From: Spirochaetes bacterium RBG_16_49_21
Lineage (GTDB): Bacteria; Spirochaetota; UBA4802; UBA5550
DNA length: 64,000 bases
Direction of reading: 5' to 3'
NCBI GenBank assembly: GCA_001829495.1
Contig: MIBJ01000022.1
Span: forward strand, 1-64,000
The stretch's first letter is position 1. Each line of letters begins with the position of its first letter. Shown piece after piece: positions 1-40,086 of this stretch. Made by a program: the position numbers and the translations under genes. The notes under the pieces were generated by a model. The model was not told the origin of the DNA. It did not search any database and was given only the letters and a program-made list of their open reading frames with translations.

Positions 1-7
1 ATATTTA

Positions 8-42
8 ATAAAGAGCCCTCGCTTGCGGCGAGGGCTCTTTAT
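8..42. terminator. Hairpin terminator-like inverted repeat downstream of ppdK
   Basis: ataaagagccctcgc-ttgcg-gcgagggctctttat: 15-bp perfect arms, 5-nt loop. Confidence 0.75.
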
Positions 43-64
43 AGATCATCCTGATAAAAAAGTA

Positions 65-2671: not shown

Positions 2672-2847
2672 CTTGTTTCTCCTGGTAACGAAATTAATGA
2701 AATAACGCAGGCTTTGCCCGCAACCCAAATCTGAGTCGCAGGGGAGGCCCTGCGGGGCTTTTAAGGGGCTTCGCCCCTTAGACCCCTGTAAGAAAATTTA
2801 CGCAAAAAGCGCAAAAAATACAGAGTAATACTATAATACAGCGCTCG

Positions 2848-3756
2848 TCAGAAGAGCCTCAGTATCTGGCCGACCGCGATTTTTAAGAACTGCTCAAACC
2901 GCGGGCTGGCACCCTCGTAAAGATATTTCTGAAGCTTGGATACGCCTTTGATGTCCTCCCCCGCCACCTGAAAGAATATTGAATCGCCGTGCTTGACCTT
3001 GCCCCACTTGAACAGGGAGTTTATGTCGTTGACCAGCTCTCCTCCATGGTATATGTACACCGCCAGGCTCGGATAGCTGGTCGTATAGCTTTCGATTATC
3101 TTCTTCCATGCCTCGACGTTCCCGTTATGGAAGAGCTCATTGGAAACCTCGATCGCGTACTTCGGCGTGATGTTCCCCTTCCCCTTCGCCGGCTCCTCGG
3201 CCTTTTTCTCCCGCTTCGCCGGTTTTTTATGAACGATAGAGCCGTCTATGAAGCTCTTGTTTAAAAAAACATCCTTCCCCGCCAGCATCTCCTCGAGGGC
3301 GTTGATGGCCGCCTTTTCGATTTTTCTATTCTCCTCTTTCAAATATTTTACATAGATGACCGCGAGCTGATCAGTGGCAAGCTCCCTGACGCGCTCCCAG
3401 TGGTCGATATTCTTCGGGTTGATGAGGCATATCTTGCCGCCCGGATTATAGTATACAACAACGATATCGAGGGCGCTCCATTTCGAGGCTTCGTCCGCGA
3501 TCTTCTGGAATTCAGTCACCGGCTCTACGATATTGTATGAATCATAGCTGTAATTATATTTATCGCGTATGATCGATCCGACGATCGGCAATATCTGATC
3601 CTCGGCTATCTCGTTGCTGTCCAGCTCGTCATTGACGATATCAGCGAGATTCCTGCTGGACTCCATATCGTCAACCACTCCGGAAACCTTGTAAAAATGC
3701 CTCAGAGCCTTGTTGAAATTGGATTTCGAGGCTAAGGCCAGATACGTGCTTTCCAT
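2848..3756 (-). CDS. Hypothetical protein between ppdK and cfpA-like gene
   Basis: Long ORF; start MESTYLALASKSN preceded by GAGGAG. No family recognised. Confidence 0.6.
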   Translation of the reverse strand: MESTYLALASKSNFNKALRHFYKVSGVVDDMESSRNLADIVNDELDSNEIAEDQILPIVGSIIRDKYNYSYDSYNIVEPVTEFQKIADEASKWSALDIVVVYYNPGGKICLINPKNIDHWERVRELATDQLAVIYVKYLKEENRKIEKAAINALEEMLAGKDVFLNKSFIDGSIVHKKPAKREKKAEEPAKGKGNITPKYAIEVSNELFHNGNVEAWKKIIESYTTSYPSLAVYIYHGGELVNDINSLFKWGKVKHGDSIFFQVAGEDIKGVSKLQKYLYEGASPRFEQFLKIAVGQILRLF

Positions 3757-3899
3757 ATTCACCACTCCTCTATCTTCATTTTCGACGGCTCGAAAAAATT
3801 CTTTCGCCGCCTCAAGTGTCGATATGATACAATCTGCTTGATTAATTGCAAGCATTTTGCAGCGAGAACGCGGAATAATTGTCTTGACCCCACAAAACA

Positions 3900-3965
3900 A
3901 CGAAGCCGCCCGCTTCTGTTAGGGAGGGGTTTAAACCCCTCCCTAACAGAAGCGGGCGGCTTCGT
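3900..3965. repeat. 66-bp perfect palindrome without loop (intergenic)
   Basis: cgaagccgcccgcttctgttagggaggggttt / aaacccctccctaacagaagcgggcggcttcg plus one flanking pair; 33-bp arms, no mismatch. Confidence 0.9.
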
Positions 3966-3990
3966 GACTTTCAATACTATGGAAACAGCC

Positions 3991-5934
3991 CTAAAGCTCT
4001 TTTAATCCGGATCTCCTGGCTGTTTTGCTCTTCGGCGTCAGGCTCACCGTGCCGGTAACCTCGCTCCCCTTGCTCGATCTATAGGCTTCCTCCATTATGG
4101 TTTCGCTGGTCTCCGCAGCCGCAAACGACTGCTCGAGATCCTCCCTCGTGGTGGAGCGGCGCCTGCTGTACGTGGCAAAGGCCGCATCCGAGAAGCCCTT
4201 GGATACTCCATAGAGGAACTCATTCAGAACATTAGCCATCCCTTTCAGCATGAATTGCTTTCGCTTGATGGTGGTGATATCGACATCAAGCACCAGACCC
4301 GGCTGAATATGGTGGGGGTTAACCTTGTAGGTGAACTCATTAAACCGTTTTATAAGAAAATTAATGCGCTCGTCCAGGATCACCCGCTCGATCGGATTCT
4401 GGAACCCGTGCATCTTCTGGAGCGCGTCTTTCAGATAGTTCGTCTTGTTTCTGAGGTTCACGATCCGGTATTCATAGGTCCTGTTGTTCTTCTCTACAAA
4501 GGTATCCTCCGGATACATCTCGCCGATCTCGTTCCAGAGAACGGTTTCCGGATCCTCGTCACGCTCCTTCTTGGCCCGCCTCCAATCCCGGGCCATGATC
4601 CTGGCCGCAAGGTCGTCGAAATCCTTGAGCGCCCTGAACCGCTTCTTCGATTCGTAATATCCGTGCACGACGTCCCAGAGCAGCTTGATCTCGGTTGAGA
4701 AGGCTTCCATCTGCTTGTCAAATTCCTTCTTCTCTTCCTTAAGCTGGTTCTGATCGTAGAACGCAAGCCTCATGGCGTAGCGCTCGTCCGGAAGAGACGC
4801 ATTATCGGTCTCCTCGTACTCGCGAATGTGGCAGATCCGGGCGTTTTTCAGGTTGTTGCATACCTGGTATCCCAGCTTACTGGTATCAAGTATGGAGGTG
4901 ATGGAGTTGATGGCCGTATTATAGCCCCTGTTCCGCACGTTTTCCTCATCAATGACGAACTTGATATTTTCCCTGATATTGAGCGGATCATAATCCTCCA
5001 CGTCAATCTCGGCCCGCAATCCCTCGATTTTATCAAGAAACTTCTTGGCCAGTATGGTATAGCGCTTTGATTTCTCATCCTCCTTTTCGTCGTCGGTGAA
5101 GTTTTCGACTCTCTTGATCTTCTCGAACATCTTCTCGCTGCCGGAAAGCTCGCGCTTGCCCTGATCTACCAGCTCGTCGTTGAAAGACTGAACCTGACGG
5201 TCTATCAGGTCCTGGATATGCTTCTGAATTGCGTCTTTCAGGAGCTTTTCAACGGTCACCTGGTAATGGTAGAGCGGGCTGATGAGCTCGCTGTCAAGAA
5301 CATTGACCGACAGCTTGACGTCATATACATATTTGGGACGGAGCTCGTTGTCCTTGAATACGCACTTTAATATTGCATAGGCGTTCTGGCCGCGTACAAA
5401 GGCGCCGATGTCGGTCTTCTGGCGCAGTATCGAGTTCGTCTCTGTTTCCAGGTCGTTCATTCCCCGCTGGATATGACCATGGAGGTGTCCGTACATGTTG
5501 ATTATGGACTTTTCGATTTCTCCGGTATTGAATTTATCCGGTCCCGCGATCTTATCCATAAGCTCCACTATCTCACGCGGCGTATACCGGGCCAGACCCC
5601 GTGTCTCTTCCTTATCCACGAAATCCCTGAGTTTTTTCAGAAACTCATCTTCCATGGTGATCGTGTATCTGTTGAACATGTTGACATACGTCTGGTTTAC
5701 ATAATTATACAATTTCTCCTTCAAGCCGCCCATGATATCCATTTTAACCAGAACATCGTGAGGCAATTTGGAATAGATATCCTTCGCAACTCTTTCGGCA
5801 GTTTCACTAACTATTAATTTTTGCTCGGCGATCTTATCCCTTCCTTCCTGCGCCAGTGATTCACGCGAACCAACTGCATTGGGGATGGTTGGGTGAAACT
5901 TATTCGGACTTTTTGGGAATTGTGTAAAAGCCAT
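3991..5934 (-). CDS. cfpA: Large helix-rich cytoplasmic protein, candidate cytoplasmic filament protein A (CfpA-like)
   Basis: 647 aa, highly charged and coiled-coil-like, no signal peptide; size and proximity to ppdK recall the Treponema ppdK/cfpA neighbourhood (from memory, not searched). Confidence 0.55.
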   Translation of the reverse strand: MAFTQFPKSPNKFHPTIPNAVGSRESLAQEGRDKIAEQKLIVSETAERVAKDIYSKLPHDVLVKMDIMGGLKEKLYNYVNQTYVNMFNRYTITMEDEFLKKLRDFVDKEETRGLARYTPREIVELMDKIAGPDKFNTGEIEKSIINMYGHLHGHIQRGMNDLETETNSILRQKTDIGAFVRGQNAYAILKCVFKDNELRPKYVYDVKLSVNVLDSELISPLYHYQVTVEKLLKDAIQKHIQDLIDRQVQSFNDELVDQGKRELSGSEKMFEKIKRVENFTDDEKEDEKSKRYTILAKKFLDKIEGLRAEIDVEDYDPLNIRENIKFVIDEENVRNRGYNTAINSITSILDTSKLGYQVCNNLKNARICHIREYEETDNASLPDERYAMRLAFYDQNQLKEEKKEFDKQMEAFSTEIKLLWDVVHGYYESKKRFRALKDFDDLAARIMARDWRRAKKERDEDPETVLWNEIGEMYPEDTFVEKNNRTYEYRIVNLRNKTNYLKDALQKMHGFQNPIERVILDERINFLIKRFNEFTYKVNPHHIQPGLVLDVDITTIKRKQFMLKGMANVLNEFLYGVSKGFSDAAFATYSRRRSTTREDLEQSFAAAETSETIMEEAYRSSKGSEVTGTVSLTPKSKTARRSGLKEL

Positions 5935-6068
5935 GAAATATTCCTCCTTATTTATTTCATTTCACTTTAAGAATCATGCTTTGTAGGCATATATTAGGGA
6001 AAAAATCTATTTTTGCAAATTGTAATATATTAATACCAAACTTTTTCTGTCAACAATATTTCTTCCGC

Positions 6069-7169
6069 TCATGATGGAAAATATTTAAAGGTGAAATTCC
6101 CTACTTTAAAAATATCCCCGTTTTGCAGAAGGCCGTCAGACTCCCTGTTCACCATCTCAATCTTCGCGCTCTTGTTTCCGGCAAGCTGCATCCGCACCGC
6201 ACCGCCCTGGCGTATCGCCCTGATGCTGAAGGGATTTTTGATATTTATGTCGCGGATATTAATAGCGCATTCAAACCCCTTGCCGATCTTCGCCTCCTTT
6301 GCAGACCTCCGCGACAGGTCAAAATGGTAAATGTACGGATCTACTATCTCATTATTCCAGTATTCCAGGCGTCCGGAAACCACAAGCCCGGATAACTTCT
6401 TGATGATGAAGATTATCGCCAAAACCAGAACAATGGAGCCCGCGGCTATCAGCAAGGGGATAAGGATGGGTCTGCTTGGGGATTCCTGTATCTTTTCGGC
6501 AGCGATCAACGCCTTCTTTCCTTTTTCCGGCTCACTGGTCTCAATGATCTTTACCTTGTCGGTTATCCGCGCCAGAGTTTTTCCCAGCTTTTTAGCTGCT
6601 TCGCTCCCTTTCATGTTGCTGAAACTGAGGACATACACCCAGAGGTTTGTTTTTTTGCCGTACCGGGCGGCAAAATCCTGGAGGTTGAACCGGTTCGCTT
6701 CTCCGGGAGGCGGATCGTCGATCGCATCCGTCATGATCACGATTTCGGTATTCCTGCCGTCTTCTTCTTTCTCAAGTTTTTCCGCCGCTTGAAAGACCTT
6801 GTATATCATTTTGTAGGTATAGGTCCATAGCCCGGCTGCTTCGGTCATGGTGATGTATTTTTTCAGAATATCGCGGTCATTGTCGTCGTCGACAAGCACC
6901 GTCGGGTATATTCTCGCGTCAGTGTCAAAGGTGACAAACGTCACACGGTCCCCGTCTTCGACGCTCTGATCAATATACTCCATGATGCTTTTCTTCACCT
7001 TGCCGAGGATGTCCCTTCCCCCCGCCTGACCGACCATGCTCATTGAGGTATCGAGCACGAGTACGATATTTTTGCTCTTGCGCGCAAAAAGGTATCCGGG
7101 GACAAACGCAAATTGTATAACCAGAATAGCGGATAATAAGAGTACGATAGGCATGAATTTAGTTCTCAA
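6069..7169 (-). CDS. VWA-domain protein with N-terminal signal/TM and C-terminal TM segment
   Basis: MIDAS-like VLDTSMSMVGQ motif; N-terminal hydrophobic segment; second TM IPLLIAAGSIVLVLAIIFII. Confidence 0.8.
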   Translation of the reverse strand: MRTKFMPIVLLLSAILVIQFAFVPGYLFARKSKNIVLVLDTSMSMVGQAGGRDILGKVKKSIMEYIDQSVEDGDRVTFVTFDTDARIYPTVLVDDDNDRDILKKYITMTEAAGLWTYTYKMIYKVFQAAEKLEKEEDGRNTEIVIMTDAIDDPPPGEANRFNLQDFAARYGKKTNLWVYVLSFSNMKGSEAAKKLGKTLARITDKVKIIETSEPEKGKKALIAAEKIQESPSRPILIPLLIAAGSIVLVLAIIFIIKKLSGLVVSGRLEYWNNEIVDPYIYHFDLSRRSAKEAKIGKGFECAINIRDINIKNPFSIRAIRQGGAVRMQLAGNKSAKIEMVNRESDGLLQNGDIFKVGNFTFKYFPS

Positions 7170-7399
7170 AATTTTTCTCCTCTTTATTAAAAGAGTATGC
7201 GTTCAGTCTGAGCAAAACTGAACATTATTATATTATATCTGAAAATACTCCTCCTCCGGTCCTGCACGCTCCGAAGTCATTTCACAAATTAAATTAATTG
7301 CCTAAATTTCCTTTAAGGCTAAAAAGGACACCATATAGATATATATAATTTTTTTATAAATGTCAAGAAGATTAATGAATTTATAAGAAATTAGTCGCC

Positions 7400-8122
7400 T
7401 TAATATTCATTATAAATAACATCTTTTTTCACGTATTTCCGAAAATCAATACTGATCATCCTCTCCATATCGAGATATTCGCTCATCAGTATGTAAAACC
7501 ACATGGCGGTGTCATCCATGGTTTCCAGGGCGATAAAACTCCTTTTTTCACGCCAGTTCTTCACTACAACCCCCTTTTGTAAAACCATGAGGATATCCAT
7601 TTCATACCGGTACTCAATATTCTTCGAAAGATAATATTCAATTATATCATTCTTCAGCTCATCAAATTTATATTTCGTATTAGCGGCGATCACAAACGAA
7701 GGCAGATGTATATTATTCGGCTCCTCGGCGTCGGTGAACATGTTGAGCTTTTTTGCCGTCGCAATTATATCCAGAATCCCGGTCAGGGAATCCCTGGTCA
7801 AATCCTGAACGATATGATATAATCCGTAAACGAGCTCGCAGGGAACATATCCTCCCATAAGGCTGATGAGATCGGGACAGTATTTCCGGTATACCACAAG
7901 GTCGACGCCCTCCGGGGAAAATCCGCCGGAATCAACCGGCCGGACGGTGTCTATCGCGAGATTGAAGGGAATTATCGGAGTAAGCGCGTCCTTCAACATC
8001 AGGGCATCGATTTTTCTTTTTGCTGCGCTCTTCTTGCCTCCTTTTTTTATTGAGGCCTTTGCAGCGGTTTTACCCTTTATCACTATACCTTTTTCAAAAT
8101 TCTTGAAATAGCTGTCTATCAT
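7400..8122 (-). CDS. Hypothetical protein
   Basis: Long ORF in the same strand context; the supplied ORF begins at a GTG, and ATGs at 8125/8122 follow a GAGGTG. Confidence 0.5.
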   Translation of the reverse strand: MIDSYFKNFEKGIVIKGKTAAKASIKKGGKKSAAKRKIDALMLKDALTPIIPFNLAIDTVRPVDSGGFSPEGVDLVVYRKYCPDLISLMGGYVPCELVYGLYHIVQDLTRDSLTGILDIIATAKKLNMFTDAEEPNNIHLPSFVIAANTKYKFDELKNDIIEYYLSKNIEYRYEMDILMVLQKGVVVKNWREKRSFIALETMDDTAMWFYILMSEYLDMERMISIDFRKYVKKDVIYNEY

Positions 8123-8190
8123 CATCAACACCTCATCTTTTTAATATGCCGGGGAAACTAATGCATAGATTCATATTGATGTCAAATAAT

Positions 8191-8254
8191 AAAATAAGGG
8201 CGCTTTCGTTAACGAGGGGTTTAAACCCCTCGTTAACGAAAGCGCCCTTATTTT
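8191..8254. repeat. 64-bp perfect palindrome without loop (intergenic)
   Basis: aaaataagggcgctttcgttaacgaggggttt / aaacccctcgttaacgaaagcgcccttatttt; 32-bp perfect arms. Confidence 0.9.
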
Positions 8255-8485
8255 TCACATTATCGGGAAAAAAAACTTGATAAATTACTTTATGGTAATT
8301 TCATGAGATCCGCCTGCGCTGTTGGTGATAGGAATGTATATTTTTTGAGCCTAAAGCTTTTTACGGGATCCCAATATTTGGCTGCAATGGTCACGCCCCT
8401 TACGGGGAAGACCTGATCATCCGTGCGGGAACCCACCTGGTAATCAGGTTCAAAAAGCTTTCCTACACGGCAGCGCGGACATTAT

Positions 8486-9760
8486 TTATTTGAACGGGTT
8501 CCCAAAAACCGACGACTTGCCGAGCTCGAATTCGATCTCCATCAGACGGTTGTATTTTGCGATACGCTCGCTCCGGCATGCAGACCCGGTCTTGATCTGC
8601 CCGCCGCCCATGGCCACGGCGAAGTCGGCCATAAAGGTGTCCTCGGTTTCGCCGGATCGATGGGAAATGACAAATCCCCACCCCGCTTTTCTGCAGAGAT
8701 TGATCGCCTCAATGGTCTCCGTGACCGTACCGATCTGGTTGAGCTTTATGAGCACCGCGTTGGATGATTTTTCCACAATCCCCCGGGCTATAAACCTGGT
8801 ATTAGTAACATATAAGTCATCGCCGACTATCTGAATTTTATCACCGAGGGCGGCAGTATGCTTCTTAAAGCCTTCCCAATCGTTTTCGGCGAGCCCGTCC
8901 TCTATCGATACGATATGATATTTCTCAACCCACCTTTTGTAGAGATCGGTCATCTCCGCGCTGTTCTTATTGCCCTGGCCGGACTTTGCGAGTGCGTATT
9001 TATTATTTTCATAAAAGGAGCTTGCTGCCGGATCGAGGGCGAGGGCCACGTCCCTGCCCGGTTCATAACCGGCGGATTTGATCGCCTCGATGATTACCTC
9101 GCATGCCTCGTCGTTGCTCTTGAGATTCGGCGCGAACCCGCCCTCGTCGCCGACCCCGGTGGAATATCCTTTTTTGCCGAGTATTTTCCTGAGTGCATGG
9201 AAGGTCTCGGCTCCATAACGGAGCGCTTCACGGAACGAAGGCGCGCCTATGGGCATAACCATGAACTCCTGAAAATCGACGCTGTTCTCCGCGTGCTTGC
9301 CGCCGTTAAGAATGTTCATCATGGGGACCGGAATGCGGCAGGAGCCGGGTCCTCCAAGATAGGCGTACAGGGGAACATCGGCCGTTATCGCCGCAGCCTT
9401 GGCCGCCGCCATGGACACGCCCAGGATGGCGTTGGCGCCGAGCTTCCCCTTGTTGGGAGTCCCGTCGAGATCGATGAGAAGGCGGTCTATGTCCGCCTGT
9501 TTCGACGGGTCCATACCGGCGACCTCCGGGGCTATGATCGTATTGACGTTCGAGACCGCCTTTAATACGCCCTTTCCCTCATAGCGTTTTTTGTCGCCGT
9601 CGCGGAGCTCCACCGCTTCGTTCTCGCCGGTGGACGCGCCTGAGGGGACCGATGCCGACACGCTGACCCCGTTATCAAGCGCCATGAACACCCGCACGGT
9701 CGGGTTGCCCCGGGAATCAAGAATCTCCATTGCATTGATCGATTTGATTCTGTTCTTCAT
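8486..9760 (-). CDS. eno: Enolase
   Basis: [21 protein letters not shown]-terminus; [34 protein letters not shown]. Confidence 0.97.
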
Positions 9761-24481: not shown

Positions 24482-24552
24482 GCGGGTGTAGTTCAGTGGT
24501 AGAACTTCAGCCTTCCAAGCTGGCCACGTGGGTTCGATTCCCATCACCCGCT
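24482..24552 (+). tRNA. tRNA-Gly(TCC)
   Basis: Cloverleaf GCGGGTG...CTTCCAA anticodon loop...GGTTCGATTCC...CACCCGC; no encoded CCA. Confidence 0.95.
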
Positions 24553-24781
24553 CATGGAATGCCGCGAAAAACGGCCGGCATCCTTCACCGCTTTTTTAAT
24601 CGCCTTCCAGATATCAGTTCCCTGTGATTGTTTCAGGGTGCGGGGACAAATACGGCCCGGCGAAAATGAATCAGGGGAATATATTCCCTTCAAAAATTAC
24701 AGCAATCCCTTTTTTAGTCAAATTGACGACATCATCCTGAGCTCCGGCCGGGAACGGTCGGGCTCGGTCCTCGCGCCGCAT

Positions 24782-27019: not shown

Positions 27020-27027
27020 GGCTATAC

Positions 27028-27240
27028 TCAACTTGACGGATGTTCAACTATTGGAGTCCCTTTTTTAATCAAATTATCGATAACAGAATAATCCCGAATA
27101 GGATTGCCGATCAGATTTACATATTCCAGCTCTTCAAGATTCTCAAGCACGCTGATGTCGGAAATATATTAAAGCTGATATCCAGCTCTTTCAAATGCGC
27201 CAGGTTTTCAAGGCGTTTTACCGGATACCGCCTAATTTTT
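27028..27240 (-). pseudogene. C-terminal remnant of a leucine-rich-repeat protein (frameshifted)
   Basis: Minus strand reads ...RLENLAHLKELDISFN (frame shift) ISDISVLENLEELEYVNLIGNPIRDYSVIDNLIKKGTPIVEHPSS*. Confidence 0.6.
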
Positions 27241-27579
27241 AAGAAAAAGACTGTCAATAGGCCCGGACAGGCCGATAAGGTGATAGAATTCATCGATCCC
27301 AATTCGGAGTTGGCGAAAACCATAGATAAGGAGTATTGGGTAAAGAAGGAAGTCGAGAGACCTAAGTACTTGGCAACCCAAGTAGTTGAAGAGGTCAAAA
27401 AGGCCGGGTTCTCCAAGTTTCGGAGACAACCTAAGCACCTACGCATGTGGAAAGCAGAGGATGCCAAGAATCCGGCGAGGGGGTATGGCACCCTGGTAGC
27501 CGGCACCTGGTACTGGTACGAGTCTTGGGTAAACCGATGTCTCGAACTATGCCAACTAGCCGGTGACAGGTACAAATGA
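27241..27579 (+). pseudogene. C-terminal fragment of unidentified protein
   Basis: Protein-like sequence (...IDPNSELAKTIDKEYWVKKEVERPKYLATQVVEEVKKAGFSKFRRQPKHLRMWKAEDAKNPARGYGTLVAGTWYWYESWVNRCLELCQ) whose in-frame upstream part is antisense to the LRR remnant. Confidence 0.45.
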
Positions 27580-27786
27580 CTCATTGACCCGATAAGTGAA
27601 TCGATTTGCTCCAGAAATTAGAATCCTTATGCCCACCGTGTTAGATAATATTTGGCTACAAATAACCATAAAAAGTATAAATAATGTATAAACGTGCTTT
27701 ACCCTTTGCCCTTTGCGAGAATATAACACAGTTTATTGATGGCTCCCTATTCACCCTCTGCAAAAAACGCTGAATAAAAAATACTT

Positions 27787-27838
27787 GTTTATTCTATAGT
27801 TAATAGGCAATTTTTTTTGACATATTGATAAAGCTCTT
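27787..27838 (+). promoter_or_regulatory. 52-nt promoter-like element, copy A
   Basis: gtttattctatagttaataggcaattttttttgacatattgataaagctctt; contains TTGACA; ungapped alignment to copies B and C. Confidence 0.7.
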
Positions 27839-27848
27839 CGGATTAGAA

Positions 27849-28256
27849 ATGATAAAAGGCCTTAATCACATTACCTTTGCGGTAAACAATCTTGAAAAGT
27901 CCTTTGCATTCTACAAGGACATATTAGGCCTAAAACCCATCGCAAAATGGCAAAACGGCGCCTATTTCACCACAGGCAATACCTGGATCGCCCTAAATCA
28001 AGATTCAAAAGTATCAGAAGCCAGACGCCCCGATTATTCTCATATTGCATTCACCTGCACTGCCTCTGATTTCCAAGCCTTAAAAGCCAAACTTGTAGAT
28101 CATGGATGTAAAAAATGGTCCGAGAATAAATCCGAAGGCGATTCTTTCTATTTTCTGGACCCTGACGGACACAAACTTGAAATACATGTCGGTGACCTGC
28201 AATCACGACTAAAAGAAATGCAGGACAATCCCTGGGATATGTTCGAGTACTACTGA
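27849..28256 (+). CDS. FosA-like VOC metalloenzyme (thiol transferase/glyoxalase superfamily), copy 1
   Basis: GLNHITFAV, PDYSHIAF and HKLEIHVGDL correspond to FosA metal-ligand regions. Confidence 0.8.
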   Translation: MIKGLNHITFAVNNLEKSFAFYKDILGLKPIAKWQNGAYFTTGNTWIALNQDSKVSEARRPDYSHIAFTCTASDFQALKAKLVDHGCKKWSENKSEGDSFYFLDPDGHKLEIHVGDLQSRLKEMQDNPWDMFEYY

Positions 28257-28490
28257 ATAGTGTCACATAATAGGGCGATTTTATCTGGCAAAGAACGGAT
28301 TTAATAAAAGACTTTCAAATTTCCTGCCTGCTTCGATAAGATCCATACACTAAATAGCTTTTTTGTTAATTTCTTATTGACAAGTTTACAAGTTTTAACG
28401 ATATTATTTTTATCATCCCTGTAAGACGTGAGTGTCTTATAGGCCCCGGGTAGCTGGTGCTCCCGGGTTTTATATTTATAGGGGATATTA

Positions 28491-29099
28491 TTGACACGTA
28501 TCGCCTTTTTTATTGACGGGTTCAATTTATATCATTCTCTTGACGATAACAAGTCATACCATAAATATAAATGGCTCAATCTTGCCCGGCTATCCAATAA
28601 CTTAATAAAGAAATCCGATACAATTACAAAAATTTATTACTTCACCGCCCTGGCTCATTGGGATCAAAAAAAAGTCGCTAAACATAAATTGCTTATTCGC
28701 GCACTCGAACTTCAGGGTGTGGAAATAGTATATGGCAAGTTTAAGATGCGAGATAAAACGTGCTTTAAATGCGGCCATACATACAGGAGTCATGAAGAAA
28801 AACAAACTGACGTCAATATAGCCATTACATTGTTTTCAAGCGCTATAAATGATGTCTATGATAAAGCAATAATACTATCAGGTGACAGCGACCTTATCCC
28901 GGCGATCAAAGCAGTTAAAAACACTTTCCCGGCAAAAAACATAGGCGTCGCCATACCCATAGGGAGGACAGCCCAGGAATTAATTAATGTTACTGATTTT
29001 CATATCCGCATCAAAGAAAAACATCTTCGAACCAGCTTGTTTCCACAGGAGATTGATATTGACGGGAAAAAACTATTGTGCCCTGCTACATGGAAATAA
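28491..29099 (+). CDS. NYN/LabA-like PIN-fold putative ribonuclease (TTG start)
   Basis: RIAFFIDGFNLYHSL; conserved QTDVNIAI, ILSGDSDLIPAI; Cys pair CFKCGHTYRSHEEKQTD. Confidence 0.85.
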   Translation: MTRIAFFIDGFNLYHSLDDNKSYHKYKWLNLARLSNNLIKKSDTITKIYYFTALAHWDQKKVAKHKLLIRALELQGVEIVYGKFKMRDKTCFKCGHTYRSHEEKQTDVNIAITLFSSAINDVYDKAIILSGDSDLIPAIKAVKNTFPAKNIGVAIPIGRTAQELINVTDFHIRIKEKHLRTSLFPQEIDIDGKKLLCPATWK

Positions 29100-29120
29100 T
29101 TGTCATGTGCCGGATTAAAA

Positions 29121-29261
29121 ATGATAAAAGGAATTAATCACATTATGTTTGCAGTAGAGAATCTTGAGAAGTCCTTTGAATTCCATAAGGCCCTATTGGG
29201 ATTAAAACCTGTCGCAAAATGGAAAAACGGAGGCTATTTTACCACAGGCGAGACTTGGTGA
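29121..29261 (+). pseudogene. Truncated FosA-like VOC gene, copy 2
   Basis: MIKGINHIMFAVENLEKSFEFHKALLGLKPVAKWKNGGYFTTGETW* matches the first third of copies 1 and 3, then stops. Confidence 0.85.
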
Positions 29262-29536
29262 TGGACACGCCAAAATCTTCACGCCTTAAAAGACCCCGCT
29301 ATCCAATGCCCGCCTTTGTTAAAGAAGCTCTTCTTCAGAGCGGTCTGATGGAGGCATATCGCAGCCGCCCGCCATATCAGCAAAACGATTACATCGGCTG
29401 GATAAGCCGCGCAAAGCGGGAAGAAACAAAGGATAAGCGGCTGGCCCAGATGCTGGACGAGCTTGCGCAAGGCGATAAATACATGAACATGACATATCGT
29501 CCGAAGAAGCTTACCGAGAAAAAAAGCCTGCATTGA
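29261..29536 (+). CDS. YdeI/OmpD-associated (OmdA)-type C-terminal domain protein
   Basis: YQQNDYIGWISRAKREETKDKRLAQMLDELAQGDKYMNM. Confidence 0.6.
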   Translation: MDTPKSSRLKRPRYPMPAFVKEALLQSGLMEAYRSRPPYQQNDYIGWISRAKREETKDKRLAQMLDELAQGDKYMNMTYRPKKLTEKKSLH

Positions 29537-29567
29537 ATGATCATGATTTATTTATAGGAAGATAAAT

Positions 29568-30278
29568 ATGAAATTACATATTTATACCGTTAAAGTTGCC
29601 GCGCTGGGAATTACAGCATCACTCCTGCTGGCCGGCTGTGCTCTTTCAGCGGCACAAAAAGAAATCCTGTGCTTAAATACTCTTGGCTCTCCAATCCCTG
29701 AATTCTGCGAGGTGAAACCGAATGTGCTCTGGCGCGGGTCCAAGCCTGACAGGAATACCGCCGCATGGCTTATCAATAAAGGCGTTAGCACGATCGTAAA
29801 TCTTGAATTGCTGCATGATGATATGGATACGATTACTCAGGAGACGATCACCGGCACGGGTACATATAAAATTGATTACTTTCGGGTAAAGACCTGGGAG
29901 CCCCTGTACGCAGTTACCAAATCGAATGCGGATGAGGATGTCATTCACTTCCTTGCAGTTGTGAGCCGGGCCAAACAGCCGGTTTATGTCCATTGCCGCG
30001 CCGGTGAGAACCGGACCGGGGTCATGGTTGCCGCGTATAAAATAATTCTCAATGGTCAAACGAGTAAGGCAGAGATGGCCAAAATACTGGATGAAATGCA
30101 GAGCTATAAAGGCGCCTGGTCTGAATCCACCACTAAGTATATCAAAGGCTTATTTCTCAGGCGTGACGAAATTATCAAGAAGGTCAGGGCATTTAAGGTG
30201 GAAGACCCCATTCAAATTATTTGCAATAAGGGGAAGTGCGTGAGCAATCCTCGACAATTTCGAGACGTTTTGTATTAA
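29568..30278 (+). CDS. Tyrosine/dual-specificity phosphatase-like lipoprotein
   Basis: Lipobox LLLAGC; catalytic loop HCRAGENRTG (CX5R). Confidence 0.85.
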   Translation: MKLHIYTVKVAALGITASLLLAGCALSAAQKEILCLNTLGSPIPEFCEVKPNVLWRGSKPDRNTAAWLINKGVSTIVNLELLHDDMDTITQETITGTGTYKIDYFRVKTWEPLYAVTKSNADEDVIHFLAVVSRAKQPVYVHCRAGENRTGVMVAAYKIILNGQTSKAEMAKILDEMQSYKGAWSESTTKYIKGLFLRRDEIIKKVRAFKVEDPIQIICNKGKCVSNPRQFRDVLY

Positions 30279-30306
30279 TTGATTAAAACAATATGGGTTA
30301 GCAAAG

Positions 30307-30371
30307 GCATAATAAGCGGCTCCACCAGATCACCGGGAAGCCCGGCTCCCGTAGAGCCGCAGCGTTATGTG
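30307..30371 (+). other. attC-like integron cassette recombination site (candidate)
   Basis: CATAA-taa-GCGGCTC ... GAGCCGC-agcg-TTATG two-step inverted repeat with inner CCGGG-aag-CCCGG; R'-like GTTATGT at 30364-30370. Confidence 0.4.
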
Positions 30372-30397
30372 TCTTAATGAGGAATGCGGAGGAAATC

Positions 30398-31180
30398 ATG
30401 GATGAATTAATAGAAACGACACAACACGAGAATATTGTTGAAGTTGCTTTGAACCGGCCCAAAGCATTTAACGCATTCAACCTTGAAATGATTTCAGAGT
30501 TAGCGAACGTTTTAATAAGGCTATCTACGGACAGTTCCGTGAAAGGTATAGCCCTTACGGGAAGAGGAAAGGCCTTTTGCGCCGGAGGAGATCTTAAATG
30601 GGCTGTGCATTTTTCCGAGAAGCCCGGTTCTTCATTCCACAGGCTGGCGTCACAATTAAATCTAGCTGTTGTTGAAATCCGGCGAATGAATAAACCCGTT
30701 GTGGCGGCCATTAATGGTCCGGCAGCCGGAGCAGGTTTTGCCCTGGCATTGGCCTGCGACTTTCGTATCATGGAAGAATCGGCGGTTCTCATGCAGGCAT
30801 ACACCTCAAATGGTCTTAGCATTGACGGAGGCGGTACATTCACATTGCCGAGAATTGTCGGTTTTGCCCGCGCTTTGGAAATTGCCGCATTTGACAAACC
30901 TATATCGGCGAAACAAGCATTGGAATTGGGGTTGGCGACCAGGGTAGTTGAAGATGGGACGGCTTTGAAGGGAGCAATCGATATGTTGAATGAATTGGCA
31001 AAGGGCTCACTTCATTCTTTTGGCTGGTCAAAAAAACTGCTTAATGATTCTTTCAGCAGTTCATTTGAATCGCATATAGAATTAGAAAGAGAGGGACTTT
31101 CTGACTGCGCAAACCATCCTGACGGAAAGGAAGGGCTGAATGCTTTCATTGAAAAGCGTAAACCTCTCTTTAACCGCTAA
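30398..31180 (+). CDS. Enoyl-CoA hydratase/isomerase family protein
   Basis: NRPKAFNAFNLEM; ALTGRGKAFCAGGDLKW; AAINGPAAGAGFALALACDFRI. Confidence 0.93.
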   Translation: MDELIETTQHENIVEVALNRPKAFNAFNLEMISELANVLIRLSTDSSVKGIALTGRGKAFCAGGDLKWAVHFSEKPGSSFHRLASQLNLAVVEIRRMNKPVVAAINGPAAGAGFALALACDFRIMEESAVLMQAYTSNGLSIDGGGTFTLPRIVGFARALEIAAFDKPISAKQALELGLATRVVEDGTALKGAIDMLNELAKGSLHSFGWSKKLLNDSFSSSFESHIELEREGLSDCANHPDGKEGLNAFIEKRKPLFNR

Positions 31181-31402
31181 AAGGTGAAACAGAAATGTAT
31201 CACACATAACCGGTCGCTGAATCAGGACAATGGAATCGCGCTCACCCGCTGGCTATGGATCGGCCAAATCGAGATAAGGATTTTTTTTGCTTCGCTGAAA
31301 AGCCAATGGGTAAATATCGGCTTTACTGTCAAGAACGCAGATCGTGTGGAGGCGATCTTCAGAGAGAAATATCTCATAAGGTAAAGAGTAACACCCGACA
31401 AA

Positions 31403-31439
31403 CGAATCAGCCGGAAGGCTAATCGCCGCCGCTGATTCG
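31403..31439. repeat. Hairpin upstream of methyltransferase gene
   Basis: cgaatcagc ... gctgattcg, 9-bp perfect arms around a GC-rich 19-nt centre. Confidence 0.6.
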
Positions 31440-31452
31440 CAGCATTGCACAC

Positions 31453-32106
31453 ATGAATACCATGAACGAGCTTGATAATCAAAAAGCATACTGGGATGGC
31501 GTCACCGTTGAAAAAAAATTCACGCATCCGATCCGGCTGGACCTCTTTCGGGAATTGGTACCGCTCGGAAGCAATATATTGGACTACGGGTGCGGGTACG
31601 GCAGAACGTGCGCTGAACTGGTGAAATCCGGCTATAAAGACATTGTCGGAGTTGATATTTCATCTGAAATGATCAAGCATGGGCTGTTATTGTACCCTAG
31701 CCTGAATTTACAGTATATTGAGGGCAGCATATTACCCTTTTCTGATAATACCTTTGCCGCTTGTACGCTGCTTGCGGTCTTGACCTGCATACCAACCGAT
31801 GCCGGGCAAAAGGAACTTATCAATGAGCTGCACAGAGTATTGCATCCGAATGGAATTCTCTACCTTAGCGACTACCCTTTGCAGAAAGACGCCAGAAACA
31901 ATGAGAGATACAACCAATTTAAAGATGCGTATAAAAAATTTGGGGTCTTCCGGCTCTCTGACGGAGGCGTAGTCCGGCATCACGACATGCCGTGGATATA
32001 CGCGCTCTTATCGCGGTTCGATATCATAAAGGAAGACAACATTGAAGTCACTACGATGAACGGGAACGCGGCGGAAGCGTTCCAGATAATCGCGAAGAAA
32101 AGATAG
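31453..32106 (+). CDS. Class I SAM-dependent methyltransferase
   Basis: SNILDYGCGYGRTCAELVKSGY; VGVDISSEMIKHG; ELHRVLHPNGILYLSDYP. Confidence 0.88.
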   Translation: MNTMNELDNQKAYWDGVTVEKKFTHPIRLDLFRELVPLGSNILDYGCGYGRTCAELVKSGYKDIVGVDISSEMIKHGLLLYPSLNLQYIEGSILPFSDNTFAACTLLAVLTCIPTDAGQKELINELHRVLHPNGILYLSDYPLQKDARNNERYNQFKDAYKKFGVFRLSDGGVVRHHDMPWIYALLSRFDIIKEDNIEVTTMNGNAAEAFQIIAKKR

Positions 32107-32438
32107 CGCGGCCGACAAGGACGCGCGCCTGATCCCAAAAGCCCGGCGATTTTTTGTCCAGGCGATGCACCCTCCCCCAATTGCCAGAATGGCAAGGTGC
32201 GGATGCTTGCGAGGACATAAGGAAAAGCATCTGCCATCGAAAGGATGCAATATTTATAATTGACAGAAATATAAAATTGACTTGTTATTATATTTAGATA
32301 AATAATTACCGCCACACTATCAACAGTAGCAGAAGTGAAAATACAAACCTATAAGCAGTTAAGCAACATGTCTCTTAAATGTTATTAGAGGCAGATTTAT
32401 TTAAAAAAACTTTAGCAGATAATTGTAAGGAGCAAATC

Positions 32439-32873
32439 ATGAACACAAAAATTCTTGCATCATTCATTTTATTAGCACAATGTGCATTAATATCCTCCTG
32501 TCTTACACATTATCAAACCAACACGTGGCTTAATACACAGAAAGGTGTTCCAACTATTAATATCACCGGAGGGTGGGATGCCGGTTCTGTATTCGGCGGA
32601 GGATGGGGCGGAGCCAGTATTGTTCAAAACGGCAACGAGATTATTGGGACAATAGGCTTGTATAATATCAAAGGCGTGATTAATGGTGACAATATTTATC
32701 TGATATTCACATCAGGTGCAAAAATATATTATACCGGCCATCTCAAGCCCTCTCAAGATGGTAGTCTGGTAGGAATTACGGTTGAAAATGCAATAGTAGA
32801 TACCAATGGGGCTCAAAATGCCATGAAGCATCCGATTATCATGAAAAAATATGGTCAAATCGAAAAAAAATAG
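32439..32873 (+). CDS. Small putative lipoprotein
   Basis: Signal peptide with ISSC; SD AAGGAG upstream; GGWDAGSVFGGGWGGASIVQNGNEIIG. Confidence 0.65.
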   Translation: MNTKILASFILLAQCALISSCLTHYQTNTWLNTQKGVPTINITGGWDAGSVFGGGWGGASIVQNGNEIIGTIGLYNIKGVINGDNIYLIFTSGAKIYYTGHLKPSQDGSLVGITVENAIVDTNGAQNAMKHPIIMKKYGQIEKK

Positions 32874-32984
32874 GGTCTGGAAATCCTATTGGACTGAAAC
32901 TTAGTGGTGTTAAATGAAAAATTTTTTCTCAGTGCTTGCCACCCTTCAGACCGCTCATTGTGAGCGTTATATGCCGGATTAAAA

Positions 32985-33389
32985 ATGATAAAAGGCCTTA
33001 ACCACATTACGTTTGCAGTAAAGAATCTTGAAAAGTCCTTTGAATTCTATAAGGACATATTAGGCTTAAAGCCCGTCGTAAAATGGAAAAACGGAGCGTA
33101 TTTTACCACAGGCGATACCTGGATTGCTCTTAATCAGGATTCAAAAGTACCAGAAGTTACGCGACCCGATTATTCTCATATTGCATTCAGCTGCGCCGCC
33201 TCTGATTTCCAAGCTTTAAAAGCCAAACTTGTAAAGTATGGATGTGTAGAATGGTCAGAGAATAAATCTGAGGGAGATTCATATTATTTTTTGGATCCCG
33301 ACGGGCACAAACTTGAAATACACGTCGGGGACTTGCAGTCACGACTAAAAGAAATGCGGGAAAATCCCTGGGATACGTTCGAGTACTAG
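32985..33389 (+). CDS. FosA-like VOC metalloenzyme, copy 3
   Basis: About 19 amino-acid differences from copy 1 over ~134 residues by eye; same metal-ligand motifs. Confidence 0.8.
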   Translation: MIKGLNHITFAVKNLEKSFEFYKDILGLKPVVKWKNGAYFTTGDTWIALNQDSKVPEVTRPDYSHIAFSCAASDFQALKAKLVKYGCVEWSENKSEGDSYYFLDPDGHKLEIHVGDLQSRLKEMRENPWDTFEY

Positions 33390-33476
33390 GGCAAGTTAGT
33401 CTTAAAATGCAAGCCCGACTAGACGGTGAAGCCGGAGCGTCCGCGCGGCTGAGCTCGACCATTCTGGGGAGGAAAA

Positions 33477-33944
33477 ATGAAAAAACTAATTCTATTTATT
33501 GCACTATCGGTCTTAAGTATTACCATTGGCGCCGCTGCGCAAGAAAATTGTTCCAAGGAAAAAACAGAAGCCATAATTGAATACTTACGGGTTAATTCAA
33601 TCGATGATCTTATGGACCAGATGCTTATCGAAATACAAAAACAAATACCGCCTGAACATCGCGAGGTTTTTGCTAAAATATGGAAATCTGCATTCGATAC
33701 AAAGGAGCTAAAAGAAATGATATTAAAGTCGATGTGTAAAATTTTCACTATAGAGGAGATCCAAGCATTAACAAAATTTTATAACAGCCCCGAAGGCAGA
33801 TCAGTAATGAAAAAAATTCCACAATATATGACTGAATTAATGCCCTATTTGCAAGTGATAAATCAACGAGCAATGCAGAAAGCCATAGAAGAAATCAATA
33901 AAACGCAAAATAAGGAAAAATTAAAACCGGAGAAATCTTTATAA
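33477..33944 (+). CDS. DUF2059-domain exported protein
   Basis: Signal peptide; ALTKFYNSPEGRSVMKKIPQYM. Confidence 0.75.
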   Translation: MKKLILFIALSVLSITIGAAAQENCSKEKTEAIIEYLRVNSIDDLMDQMLIEIQKQIPPEHREVFAKIWKSAFDTKELKEMILKSMCKIFTIEEIQALTKFYNSPEGRSVMKKIPQYMTELMPYLQVINQRAMQKAIEEINKTQNKEKLKPEKSL

Positions 33945-34068
33945 CCTCCTCATTTCAGAATGTATTTCCCGATCCTCCGTGAGGGCGTCGGCGATGCTTC
34001 CCGGGAGATTCCATGCATAATGCCTTATGTTCTGATATCCCGAAGCAGGACGTCGGTAGAGGTATTTG

Positions 34069-34230
34069 CTTGCAATTGCCAACGGCAAAGGCAGCGAAAT
34101 CATTTTTACGCTTATTCGCCAGCCGGAAATGTCCGATGAGAAGTTCGCGGAAGATGCCAAGTGGGTGGAGAAAGGATCGATCAAAAAAAGATTGATTAAT
34201 AAAACAAAGACACGCCTGCTTATTTTATAG
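34069..34230 (+). pseudogene. C-terminal remnant of SRPBCC/polyketide-cyclase-like protein
   Basis: LAIANGKGSEIIFTLIRQPEMSDEKFAEDAKWVEKGS... open frame without start or N-terminal domain. Confidence 0.5.
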
Positions 34231-34269
34231 CTAATAAACTATTTTTATTGACATTTTTATAAAACTCTT
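34218..34269 (+). promoter_or_regulatory. 52-nt promoter-like element, copy B
   Basis: gcttattttatagctaataaactatttttattgacatttttataaaactctt; 48/52 identical to copy C. Confidence 0.75.
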
Positions 34270-34344
34270 CTTTAAATTTAAATAAGTAAAAAATTATAAA
34301 ATTTCTATATAATAATTGTTTAGGCTCACAAAAGGAGGAGAAAC

Positions 34345-34701
34345 ATGTTCATAGCCGCCAATATCGTCGTTGCTCTCGTCGCGCTACTGCACGTCTGCTT
34401 CCTGGTGCTCGAAATGTTCCTGTGGGACAAACCAATAGGTCTGCGGGTTTTCGGCCAAACAAAAGAGGCGGCTGCGGCCACCAAGCTCCTGGCCGCCAAT
34501 CAGGGTCTTTACAATGGCTTTCTCGCCGCCGGCTTGGTCTGGGGTCTGAGCCTTGGCCCGGATGGCACCGGCATCAAGGTCTTCTTTCTTTGTTGCGTGC
34601 TTATTGCAGGCCTGTTCGGGGGAGCTACCGCCGGCCGGAAAATTCTCATTGTTCAAGCGATTCCCGCAGCCGTCGGATTGGCGCTGGTGTTGCTTTCCTA
34701 A
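34345..34701 (+). CDS. DUF1304 family membrane protein
   Basis: Four TM; LHVCFLVLEMFLWDKPIGLRVFG; AANQGLYNGFLAAGL. Confidence 0.85.
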   Translation: MFIAANIVVALVALLHVCFLVLEMFLWDKPIGLRVFGQTKEAAAATKLLAANQGLYNGFLAAGLVWGLSLGPDGTGIKVFFLCCVLIAGLFGGATAGRKILIVQAIPAAVGLALVLLS

Positions 34702-34897
34702 GCTGCGGGTTGCACAAGCCTTAATAAGGCATTGCACGCTTTTAACCTGACCTGATTCGAGGGTCTTTCCTGAAAGATATTTTTGTCCTGAACATTGGTT
34801 GAGTAATCTGATTCGAGAGAGCCGTTGCAAAAAATATTTTGCAAAGTCCTCCCCGTGCTCGTATATTTAAAAAATATTAATATTTAAGAGGTAAGCT

Positions 34898-35305
34898 ATG
34901 GCAGATTTAAAGTCATTCGTTGCGAAATGGTCCCCTGTTGTGCACAGTATCATGAGGATCATGATTGCGCTTCTTTTCATGGAGCACGGGGCGCAGAAGC
35001 TTTTCGGACTCCCGGTTGCCATGGAAGGCTTCACGTTGTCGTTATTCTCGCTCCTTGGTCTTGCGGCTATTCTTGAATTTTTCGGAGGGTTATTCGTCCT
35101 TGTCGGTCTCTTCACCAGACCTGTCGCGTTCATCCTGTCAGGTCAAATGGCGACTGCCTATTTCATGGCGCACGCGCCGAAAAGCTTCTGGCCGGTCGTG
35201 AATCAAGGAGAGCTTGCGATCATCTATTGCTTTGTGTTTCTCTACCTTGCATTCGCCGGAGGCGGCTCATGGAGCCTTGACCGTGCATTGCGTAAAATAG
35301 ATTAG
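34898..35305 (+). CDS. DoxX family protein
   Basis: MRIMIALLFMEHGAQKLFG; FFGGLFVLVGLFTRPVAFILSGQMATAYFMAHAPKSFWP. Confidence 0.92.
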   Translation: MADLKSFVAKWSPVVHSIMRIMIALLFMEHGAQKLFGLPVAMEGFTLSLFSLLGLAAILEFFGGLFVLVGLFTRPVAFILSGQMATAYFMAHAPKSFWPVVNQGELAIIYCFVFLYLAFAGGGSWSLDRALRKID

Positions 35306-35571
35306 CGATCAGATGCAAATTCCGCCGCGCTCCATTCGCACCGGTTATTTGCGGCGTTAGACGTTTATTGCGCCGATGGGCATGCCGACTGTCTCAAGGC
35401 TATGAACCCCTTATGCTTCATGAAGTTGGACATCACTGACATTGCCGACATGGCGCTGCACCGGTTGCACCACCCGCTGTGCGGGCTTTACGCCGGCGAG
35501 CAGGGGCGTTATACTTCAAATCCACGATCAAGGGTGCTGAAAGCAGGTAATTTCTCCGGCAGGGATTTTAG

Positions 35572-35757
35572 TTAAATACCATTATCTGTTGTTTTATCTT
35601 CATTTTCAGCATTTTTTACATCTTCACCGGTAATTTCTGAATTTTTTTCGCCCGTGCCGGAAGTTTTATTTAACTTTCTCCGGCGCTTTTCATCCTGCTT
35701 TTTCTTCTTTGCTATATCTCTCTGACGTTTTTCATACTGATAGTTATTTCTGGCCAA
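35572..35757 (-). CDS. Small Lys/Arg-rich protein
   Basis: 61 aa, RDIAKKKKQDEKRRRKLNK; same strand as and downstream of the RRM gene. Confidence 0.5.
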   Translation of the reverse strand: MARNNYQYEKRQRDIAKKKKQDEKRRRKLNKTSGTGEKNSEITGEDVKNAENEDKTTDNGI

Positions 35758-35859
35758 TTTTTCATCCTTACTGTGTTAATTTTACAGAATTAAAGATACC
35801 GTTCCGGAAAACAGTTTAATTTTCCGGAACGGAAATAATAAGAGCAAGAATTCAGTTTA

Positions 35860-36132
35860 TTAATATCGCTGACTTCTCCGTGGTCTATCTTCCTTAGGTT
35901 TAGCAACGTTTACTTTAATGTTTCTCCCATCGATCTCTTTACCATCGAGCTGTTTGATTGCCTCATCGCCTTCTGCCTGATTTGGCATTTCAACAAATCC
36001 AAATCCTTTTGAACGTCCGGTTTCTCTGTCGATAACAATTTTGCTTTCCGACACTGAACCGAAAGTCTTGAACAATTTTTCCAGATCTTCATCCGTCATC
36101 TTATAAGACAGATTGCCTACATAAATATTCAT
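35860..36132 (-). CDS. RRM-domain RNA-binding protein
   Basis: RNP2 IYVGNLSY and RNP1 KGFGFVEM; start MNIYVGN. Confidence 0.95.
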   Translation of the reverse strand: MNIYVGNLSYKMTDEDLEKLFKTFGSVSESKIVIDRETGRSKGFGFVEMPNQAEGDEAIKQLDGKEIDGRNIKVNVAKPKEDRPRRSQRY

Positions 36133-36256
36133 CTTTGCTTTTCTCCTTAAATGCACATGGCTTAATAATTGATATATGCAAGATTTTGGATTACTGATTA
36201 CACAGAGCGGTCTTTTTGTCAAGGATGAATTCTCTCTCTGGCGAGTATTTACAACT

Positions 36257-36308
36257 GCTTATCCTATAGTTAATAAACGATTTTTATTGACATTTTTATA
36301 AAACTCTT
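36257..36308 (+). promoter_or_regulatory. 52-nt promoter-like element, copy C
   Basis: gcttatcctatagttaataaacgatttttattgacatttttataaaactctt followed by a TGTAAT -10 at 17-nt spacing from TTGACA. Confidence 0.75.
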
Positions 36309-36378
36309 TTGTAATTAATGGGAAATTATGGAATTCCTGTATAGTAATTGTTATGTGCAGCATAAAAAGGAGCGAAAA

Positions 36379-36795
36379 ATGAAAAGACTACTCTGGGCTC
36401 TATGGTTTGCATTATTGTTGTCAAGTACCGTTCAAGCCGATGATCCCGCCGGCATCGGCGTTGTGGTGTTGGCAAAGACGGGCTCAAGCTGGGACGGAAC
36501 TTCCCTGCCGGCATATCCGTCCGGCAAGCCTGAAATAACGATTTTGCGAATAACAATTCCGGCAGGAACCGCCTTGCCGCTGCATCAGCATCCGGTGATA
36601 AATGCAGGTGTATTGCTGAGCGGAGAGCTGACGGTCATAACCGAAGATAACAGAACACTGCATCTCAAGGCCGGAGATCCAATCGTTGAGGTTGTGAATA
36701 AATGGCACTACGGAAAGAACACGGGAAATGGCCCCGCAGTGATCCTGGTTTTCTATGCCGGCGCTCTGGACACGCCGATAACCATCAAGAAATAG
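36379..36795 (+). CDS. Exported cupin-domain protein
   Basis: Signal peptide MKRLLWALWFALLLSSTVQA; IPAGTALPLHQHPVINAGVLLSGELTV. Confidence 0.85.
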   Translation: MKRLLWALWFALLLSSTVQADDPAGIGVVVLAKTGSSWDGTSLPAYPSGKPEITILRITIPAGTALPLHQHPVINAGVLLSGELTVITEDNRTLHLKAGDPIVEVVNKWHYGKNTGNGPAVILVFYAGALDTPITIKK

Positions 36796-36802
36796 GCGCC
36801 CC

Positions 36803-40013: not shown

Positions 40014-40086
40014 AGCCAGCAGCCGGAATCGAACCGGCGACAGGTCGATTACGAATCGACTCCTCTACCAACTGAGGTATGCTGGC
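40014..40086 (-). tRNA. tRNA-Thr(CGT)
   Basis: Minus strand GCCAGCATACCTCAGTTGGTAGAGGAGTCGATTCGTAATCGACCTGTCGCCGGTTCGATTCCGGCTGCTGGC; anticodon loop TTCGTAA. Confidence 0.93.

Follow-up and report, generated by a model that had tools for sequence, protein, structure and literature searches.

The stretch of DNA analysed here (the window, 64,000 nucleotides) comprises bases 1-64000 of contig C22 in the genome of Spirochaetes bacterium RBG_16_49_21 (G000; 3.8 Mb in 83 contigs, 94.7% complete), and between 27.0 and 36.8 kb it contains about 13 short open reading frames (ORFs) that belong to unrelated families and, with few exceptions, lie on the plus strand. We conclude that this region is probably a decayed, composite, integrase-less relic of integron cassette capture behind orphan attI-like sites, similar to those of deltaattI-type cassettes. 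The evidence consists of a recurring element that ends in GTT, a switch of cargo at this GTT between two species, attC sites elsewhere in this genome, a single attC-like site within the region, and glyoxalase gene units that begin at the same type of boundary. A sequence-only reading of the window had proposed a decayed or integrase-less cassette array, or another capture mechanism. Capture and the lack of an IntI both stand in our analysis, whereas an attC array received weak support for this region, the recurring boundary being the attI-like element instead.

A recurring element ending in GTT

A repeat search of the region revealed a 60-nt family at 27785, 34216, and 36255 that the sequence-only reading had not mentioned, and BLAST of the region against 39 relatives gave own-genome matches on C26, C41, and C4 (three), as well as one in the sister species G122. 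The aligned copies have ~100 nt in common, ending in GAAATTATGGAATTTCTGTATAATAATTGTT, and similarity ceases after the GTT. A sequence-only model of this element (R1), run over 46 genomes of the order, detected 11 copies in G000, a single copy in G122, and a full-length but weaker match in G139, which belongs to another genus of the same family. With a partial and weak copy on C61, the total in G000 is 12 on five contigs, where the copies are clustered at gene-sized spacing (four on C4, three on C61, and three on C22) and are also present on C26 and C41. C4 also has an isolated copy of the upstream half alone (L075:15507-15560), which lacks the GTT end of the 183-nt element.

The right end of the element is pinned at AATAATTGTT, behind which unrelated genes start, often with AGGC or AGGT. 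With the G122 copy as reference, the left ends are staggered from -182 to -25, and most copies share one right end, at GTT. Directly behind GTT, the nine full copies continue with AGGC (three copies), AGGT, ATGT, TAGG, AACC, CGGC, and GCCC, so that AGGY occurs in 4/9 against 1/128 expected for each copy (~5e-7 by our estimate, with equal base frequencies). The integron recombination cut falls between G and TT of GTTRRRY (PMC12901181), and a common right end at this cut combined with shortened left ends, as in deltaattI-type sites, is what we found. The element does not have the form of a miniature inverted-repeat or other short transposable element, as only its right end is fixed and its left ends are staggered, although target-site duplications were not specifically looked for.

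For attC sites, we calibrated a scanner and two covariance models on the arrays of the 52 of 393 genomes of the phylum that have an IntI over the TIGR02249 cut-off (265). Model R2 was built from attC sites of other genomes only, and R3 includes four other attC sites of G000, none from the window. Earlier scanners failed to detect the G000 sites or found no more sites than in shuffled sequence, whereas a scanner rewarding the extrahelical base separated real arrays from chance (chance rate ~0.1 per 10 kb at score 28).

A comparison of two species shows a switch of cargo at the end of the element. On C26 and in G122 the element lies behind the same gene, which we take to be P-type-ATPase-like and the end of which is 75% identical between the two. 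Identity is 91% over the 183 nt that lead up to GTT; beyond GTT there is no likeness, and the cargo is unrelated. Downstream of the element on C26 is a same-strand attC candidate (R2 24.7 bits, E 0.001), and another was found on C41 (scanner score 29.4, but R2 gave only 13 bits). Behind the G139 element come GTTAGGC, a gene, and a same-strand attC (R3 27.4 bits; this site is outside the R3 training set).

In a control search, the attI that adjoins intI in G031 was compared with six genomes of the phylum that carry intI. Both G126 and G031 proved to contain a second attI copy at a site away from intI (L158:6443-6538 at G126:C1:147443, and L157:2104-2159 at G031:C1:327104), beside sequence that is presumably recF-like from our reading of the protein, and heading genes with canonical attC sites. 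The two copies apparently mark a shared locus that serves as a second platform without an integrase. Genuine integron genomes can therefore contain an attI that is separated from intI and leads cassettes of its own, although once each in G126 and G031 vs. about a dozen element copies in G000. The attI of G292 is present in one copy each in G292 and G334.

Within the region, three glyoxalase copies are 82-87% alike, and their neighbours differ. Copy 2 is preceded by AAATAATTGTC, which is similar to the final 11 nt of the element and may be likened to the very short deltaattI1-11 sites (PMC12901181). The nearest outside homologue in the species-genome collection (81%) is in a metagenome-assembled genome of the Thermodesulfobacteriota, another phylum, where it starts 218 nt behind a same-strand attC (R2 23 bits, E 9e-4). 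GTTATGT-like heptamers, which the sequence-only reading had seen at the start of several gene leaders, are indeed present at 30364 and 36350 (GTTATGT), 32966 (GTTATAT), and 29102 (GTCATGT).

A TTGACA box is almost invariant in the element, and an ORF in the same orientation always follows within a few tens of bases. Both features would also suit a regulon whose promoter or regulatory leader had been spread by ordinary duplication or gene conversion, with the region itself being generic horizontally acquired DNA. We consider this unlikely, as a ~100-nt identity that stops at GTT, the staggered left ends, and the excess of AGGY after GTT argue against it, and so do the cargo switch between two species and the downstream attC sites on C26, C41, and in G139. 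The -10 boxes are also weak, and no element copy passed the promoter scan. A hairpin over the -35 box showed covariation no greater than in shuffles. Own promoters, part of the layout described in the sequence-only reading, were not confirmed either, with 23 promoter-like sites vs. 21.1 in shuffled DNA. Instead of a regulon leader, we infer that the element is an attI plus a cassette promoter.

attC sites and the search for an integrase

By R2, G000 contains attC sites on C67 (43.5 bits, E 5e-7) and C40 (37.1 bits, E 2.5e-5). Two further sites on C67 and three alike ~127-nt sites on C40 were detected by the scanner, for a total of three and four respectively. With at least two attC sites and no integrase, both loci qualify by the scanner as integrase-less cassette remnants (CALIN) and fit this class well. 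Unlike them, the window region has one model-supported attC, at 30307-30370, fewer than the default of at least two for CALIN, together with several attI-like sites. attC sites flanking cassettes, as in a complete integron, are found on C67, C40, and C26, with one site in the window. The genuine arrays on C67 (L128) and C40 (L129, bases 1-9030) have among their cargo RibD-like, exo-endonuclease, HNH, SnoaL-like, and PIN genes, and the C40 array also includes transposase-like genes. The ~127-nt sites on C40 (L129:1366-1491, 2158-2286, and 4994-5120) form a homogeneous family resembling sedentary-integron sites, with low scores from the model trained on shorter sites.

The attC-like site of the region consists of R'' GCATAAT, L'' GCGGCTC, L' GAGCCGC, and R' GTTATGT, without a clear extrahelical base in L'', and its bottom strand is predicted to fold into a single hairpin (z -4.4). 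The R3 support for it is moderate, because R3 was built after R2 had failed there; elsewhere in the window, R3 gave at best 14.7 bits. A second candidate at 31393-31450 was missed by both covariance models, and the other spacers of the region are weakly palindromic at best. Of the attC array expected by the sequence-only reading, one site by R3 is thus left rather than a run of sites, with R2 unsupportive.

No integrase was found within the window and no intI near the element copies in G000, and the whole-genome search, in agreement with an integrase-less array, returned no IntI over the cut-off. Contigs C47 (L120:244-1377), C3 (L002:1234-2325), and C79 (L005:1384-2106) encode IntI-related tyrosine recombinases with a gap at positions ~180-232 of the IntI profile, which is presumably where the IntI-specific insertion would be expected. 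Because such enzymes are encoded in this genome and an IntI was not found, one of them, or XerC/D, might move genes at GTT. We regard this as slightly less probable still than a regulon leader: none of the three recombinases has an element copy nearby, GTTAGGC is the integron core site, and, to our knowledge, attC sites need an IntI. A homology of the element to DNA 3' of the G170 intI (score 36 vs. a shuffled maximum of 32) failed with the element model and was dropped.

Several results count against a cassette-capture origin. The best own-genome scores against the IntI profile were 111.9 and 96.6 bits (C47), below the cut-off, and none of the other genomes of the same family has an IntI over it. 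The element model gave no credible match at the tested intI loci of other genomes; since the element was never seen beside an intI, the attI label rests on its behaviour. In the window R2 found nothing significant, scoring 30307-30370 at only 11.3 bits (E 0.8), and the sole supported attC of the region is backed by R3, a model that includes own-genome attC sites. The exact GTT end is lost in 4/12 own-genome element copies (C22a, C4a, C61b, and C61c). The absence of an IntI is nevertheless provisional, because ~5% of the genome is missing and the attC contig C67 is only 7.5 kb long.

Genes and composition of the region

The features of the region are listed below. As the sequence-only reading had described, the genes are short, mostly co-oriented, and of unrelated function, including three VOC glyoxalases, NYN, OmdA, a PTP-like phosphatase, enoyl-CoA hydratase, methyltransferase, DUF2059, DUF1304, DoxX, and cupin. 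Gene fragments were confirmed in part: one glyoxalase (copy 2) is cut short at ~29261, but a proposed leucine-rich-repeat tail and a C-terminus of unknown family have no Pfam match. Likewise, the region is AT-rich as claimed (G+C 38-47% vs. 54-60% at 9-24 kb), but equally AT-rich DNA occurs at 7-8, 24-26, 40-44, and 54-55 kb.

Features of the 27.0-36.8 kb region (positions in the window)
Feature	Position	Strand	Basis
Element copy C22a, lacking its 3' part; a deletion took out the GTT junction and fused the element to glyoxalase copy 1	27785..27838	+	R1 27.5 bits
Glyoxalase copy 1; joined through the deletion to C22a	27839..28256	+	
NYN-domain nuclease-like gene (cargo)	28491..29099	+	Pfam NYN
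Glyoxalase copy 2, truncated; unit starts at G of GTCATGT	29102..29261	+	Pfam Glyoxalase
OmdA/YdeI-like gene (cargo); start overlaps end of glyoxalase fragment	29219..29536	+	Pfam OmdA
Tyrosine/dual-specificity phosphatase-like lipoprotein gene (cargo)	29568..30278	+	Pfam PTP-NADK and related
attC-like site, upstream of enoyl-CoA hydratase gene	30307..30370	+	R3 24.4 bits, E 3.8e-4
Enoyl-CoA hydratase/isomerase gene (cargo), behind attC-like site	30377..31180	+	Pfam ECH_1
Possible decayed attC, weak (R'' ACCCGAC, R' ATTGCAC), just before methyltransferase gene	31393..31450	+	Spacer test p 0.017, uncorrected for 13 spacers
Methyltransferase gene (cargo)	31453..32106	+	Pfam Methyltransf_11
Small lipoprotein-like gene without a Pfam family; G042 has a homologue at another locus (60% identity)	32379..32873	+	
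Glyoxalase copy 3, intact; unit starts at G of GTTATAT	32966..33389	+	
DUF2059 gene (cargo)	33477..33944	+	Family match
Element copy C22b; ends ATAATAATTGTT, then TAGGC; directly before DUF1304 gene	34215..34320	+	R1 67.5 bits
DUF1304 gene, 25 nt behind C22b	34345..34701	+	Family match
DoxX gene (cargo)	34898..35305	+	Family match
Resident genes rather than cassette cargo: conserved pair encoding a 61-aa protein and an RRM protein	35572..36222	-	Relatives
Element copy C22c; ends TAGTAATTGTT, then ATGTGC; directly before cupin gene	36255..36352	+	R1 88.1 bits
Cupin gene behind C22c; ATG at 36380 is the likelier start	36328..36795	+	

The minus-strand pair is also paired in G042 and G180 (RRM protein 83-88%, 61-aa protein 58-71% identity), and because of this conservation the region is composite rather than one simple array. 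The relatives are rather distant and yielded no syntenic copy of the cargo, and synteny with same-genus genomes is too diverged to reveal single-gene indels. The sequence-only reading would have been contradicted by a gene order shared with relatives and by spacers that do not recur; cargo synteny was not found in these distant relatives, however, and the element recurs on four other contigs. The leader of the NYN gene (28420-28475) contains two consecutive GC-rich inverted repeats (GTAAGACGTGAGTGTCTTAT and CCCGGGTAGCTGGTGCTCCCGGG) that match no Rfam family.

A genomic island inserted at a tRNA gene is very improbable: tRNA-Gly (24482-24553) and tRNA-Thr (40014-40086) flank the region with their 3' ends facing it and low G+C between them, but no repeat of either 3' end, which would mark the far border, and no integrase were found in the window, and the conserved gene pair lies inside, so that this reading was rejected. 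Besides the two tRNAs, Rfam gave one sub-threshold match, over the tRNA-Thr gene.

Proposed cassette capture at multiplied attI-like sites

Integrons are described with one attI and one promoter serving the nearest cassettes. Under cassette capture as we propose it for this region, an IntI that was lost, is missing from the assembly, or acted in trans would have inserted circular cassettes between G and TT at the end of the element. Copies of the attI, full or left-shortened as in deltaattI, would have taken the place of attC between genes, so that several captured genes would have come to lie directly behind their own element copy. Loss of the IntI would then have frozen the array, with deletions eroding attC sites and genes. 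The element may have multiplied by IntI-mediated exchange or by homologous recombination between copies.

Among known systems, the closest are the deltaattI-type cassettes of class 1 and 2 mobile integrons, in which, as described in PMC12901181 with citation of Partridge et al. (2009), a shortened attI replaces attC, with a common right end between G and TT, varying left ends, and the gene directly behind. These cassettes recombine with IntI1 in vivo (PMC12901181). Unlike them, the copies in G000 are chromosomal, number about a dozen over five loci, and carry a promoter-like box; no intI was seen, and the element is a putative attI. The chromosomal integrons of Treponema, the only ones described in PMC3607928, belong to the same phylum and, according to that paper, have a single attI per integron; this attI is placed 3' of intI, with cassettes beginning GTTAGGT. 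In contrast, G000 belongs to another class. Two intI-bearing genomes of the phylum have an extra intI-less attI. The attG sites likewise hold cassettes outside the intI-linked array (PMC12901181; PMC12444791), but they are described as diverse and scattered, whereas one 100-183-nt sequence family recurs here. We found no description of many chromosomal attI copies in the literature searched, the coverage of which is incomplete.

It is conceivable, though rather doubtful, that in this lineage the recurrent boundary between cassettes is now the attI itself, together with its promoter, constituting a natural chromosomal deltaattI-cassette system. If so, each captured gene would lie directly behind its own promoter, and expression would not be confined to the leading genes, as it is in an attC array. 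Because only one boundary here would score as attC, such loci are missed by attC-based software. Taken with the extra intI-less attI in two genomes, the dozen or so dispersed attI-like copies suggest that attI can multiply, which would change the understanding of cassette expression and array growth.

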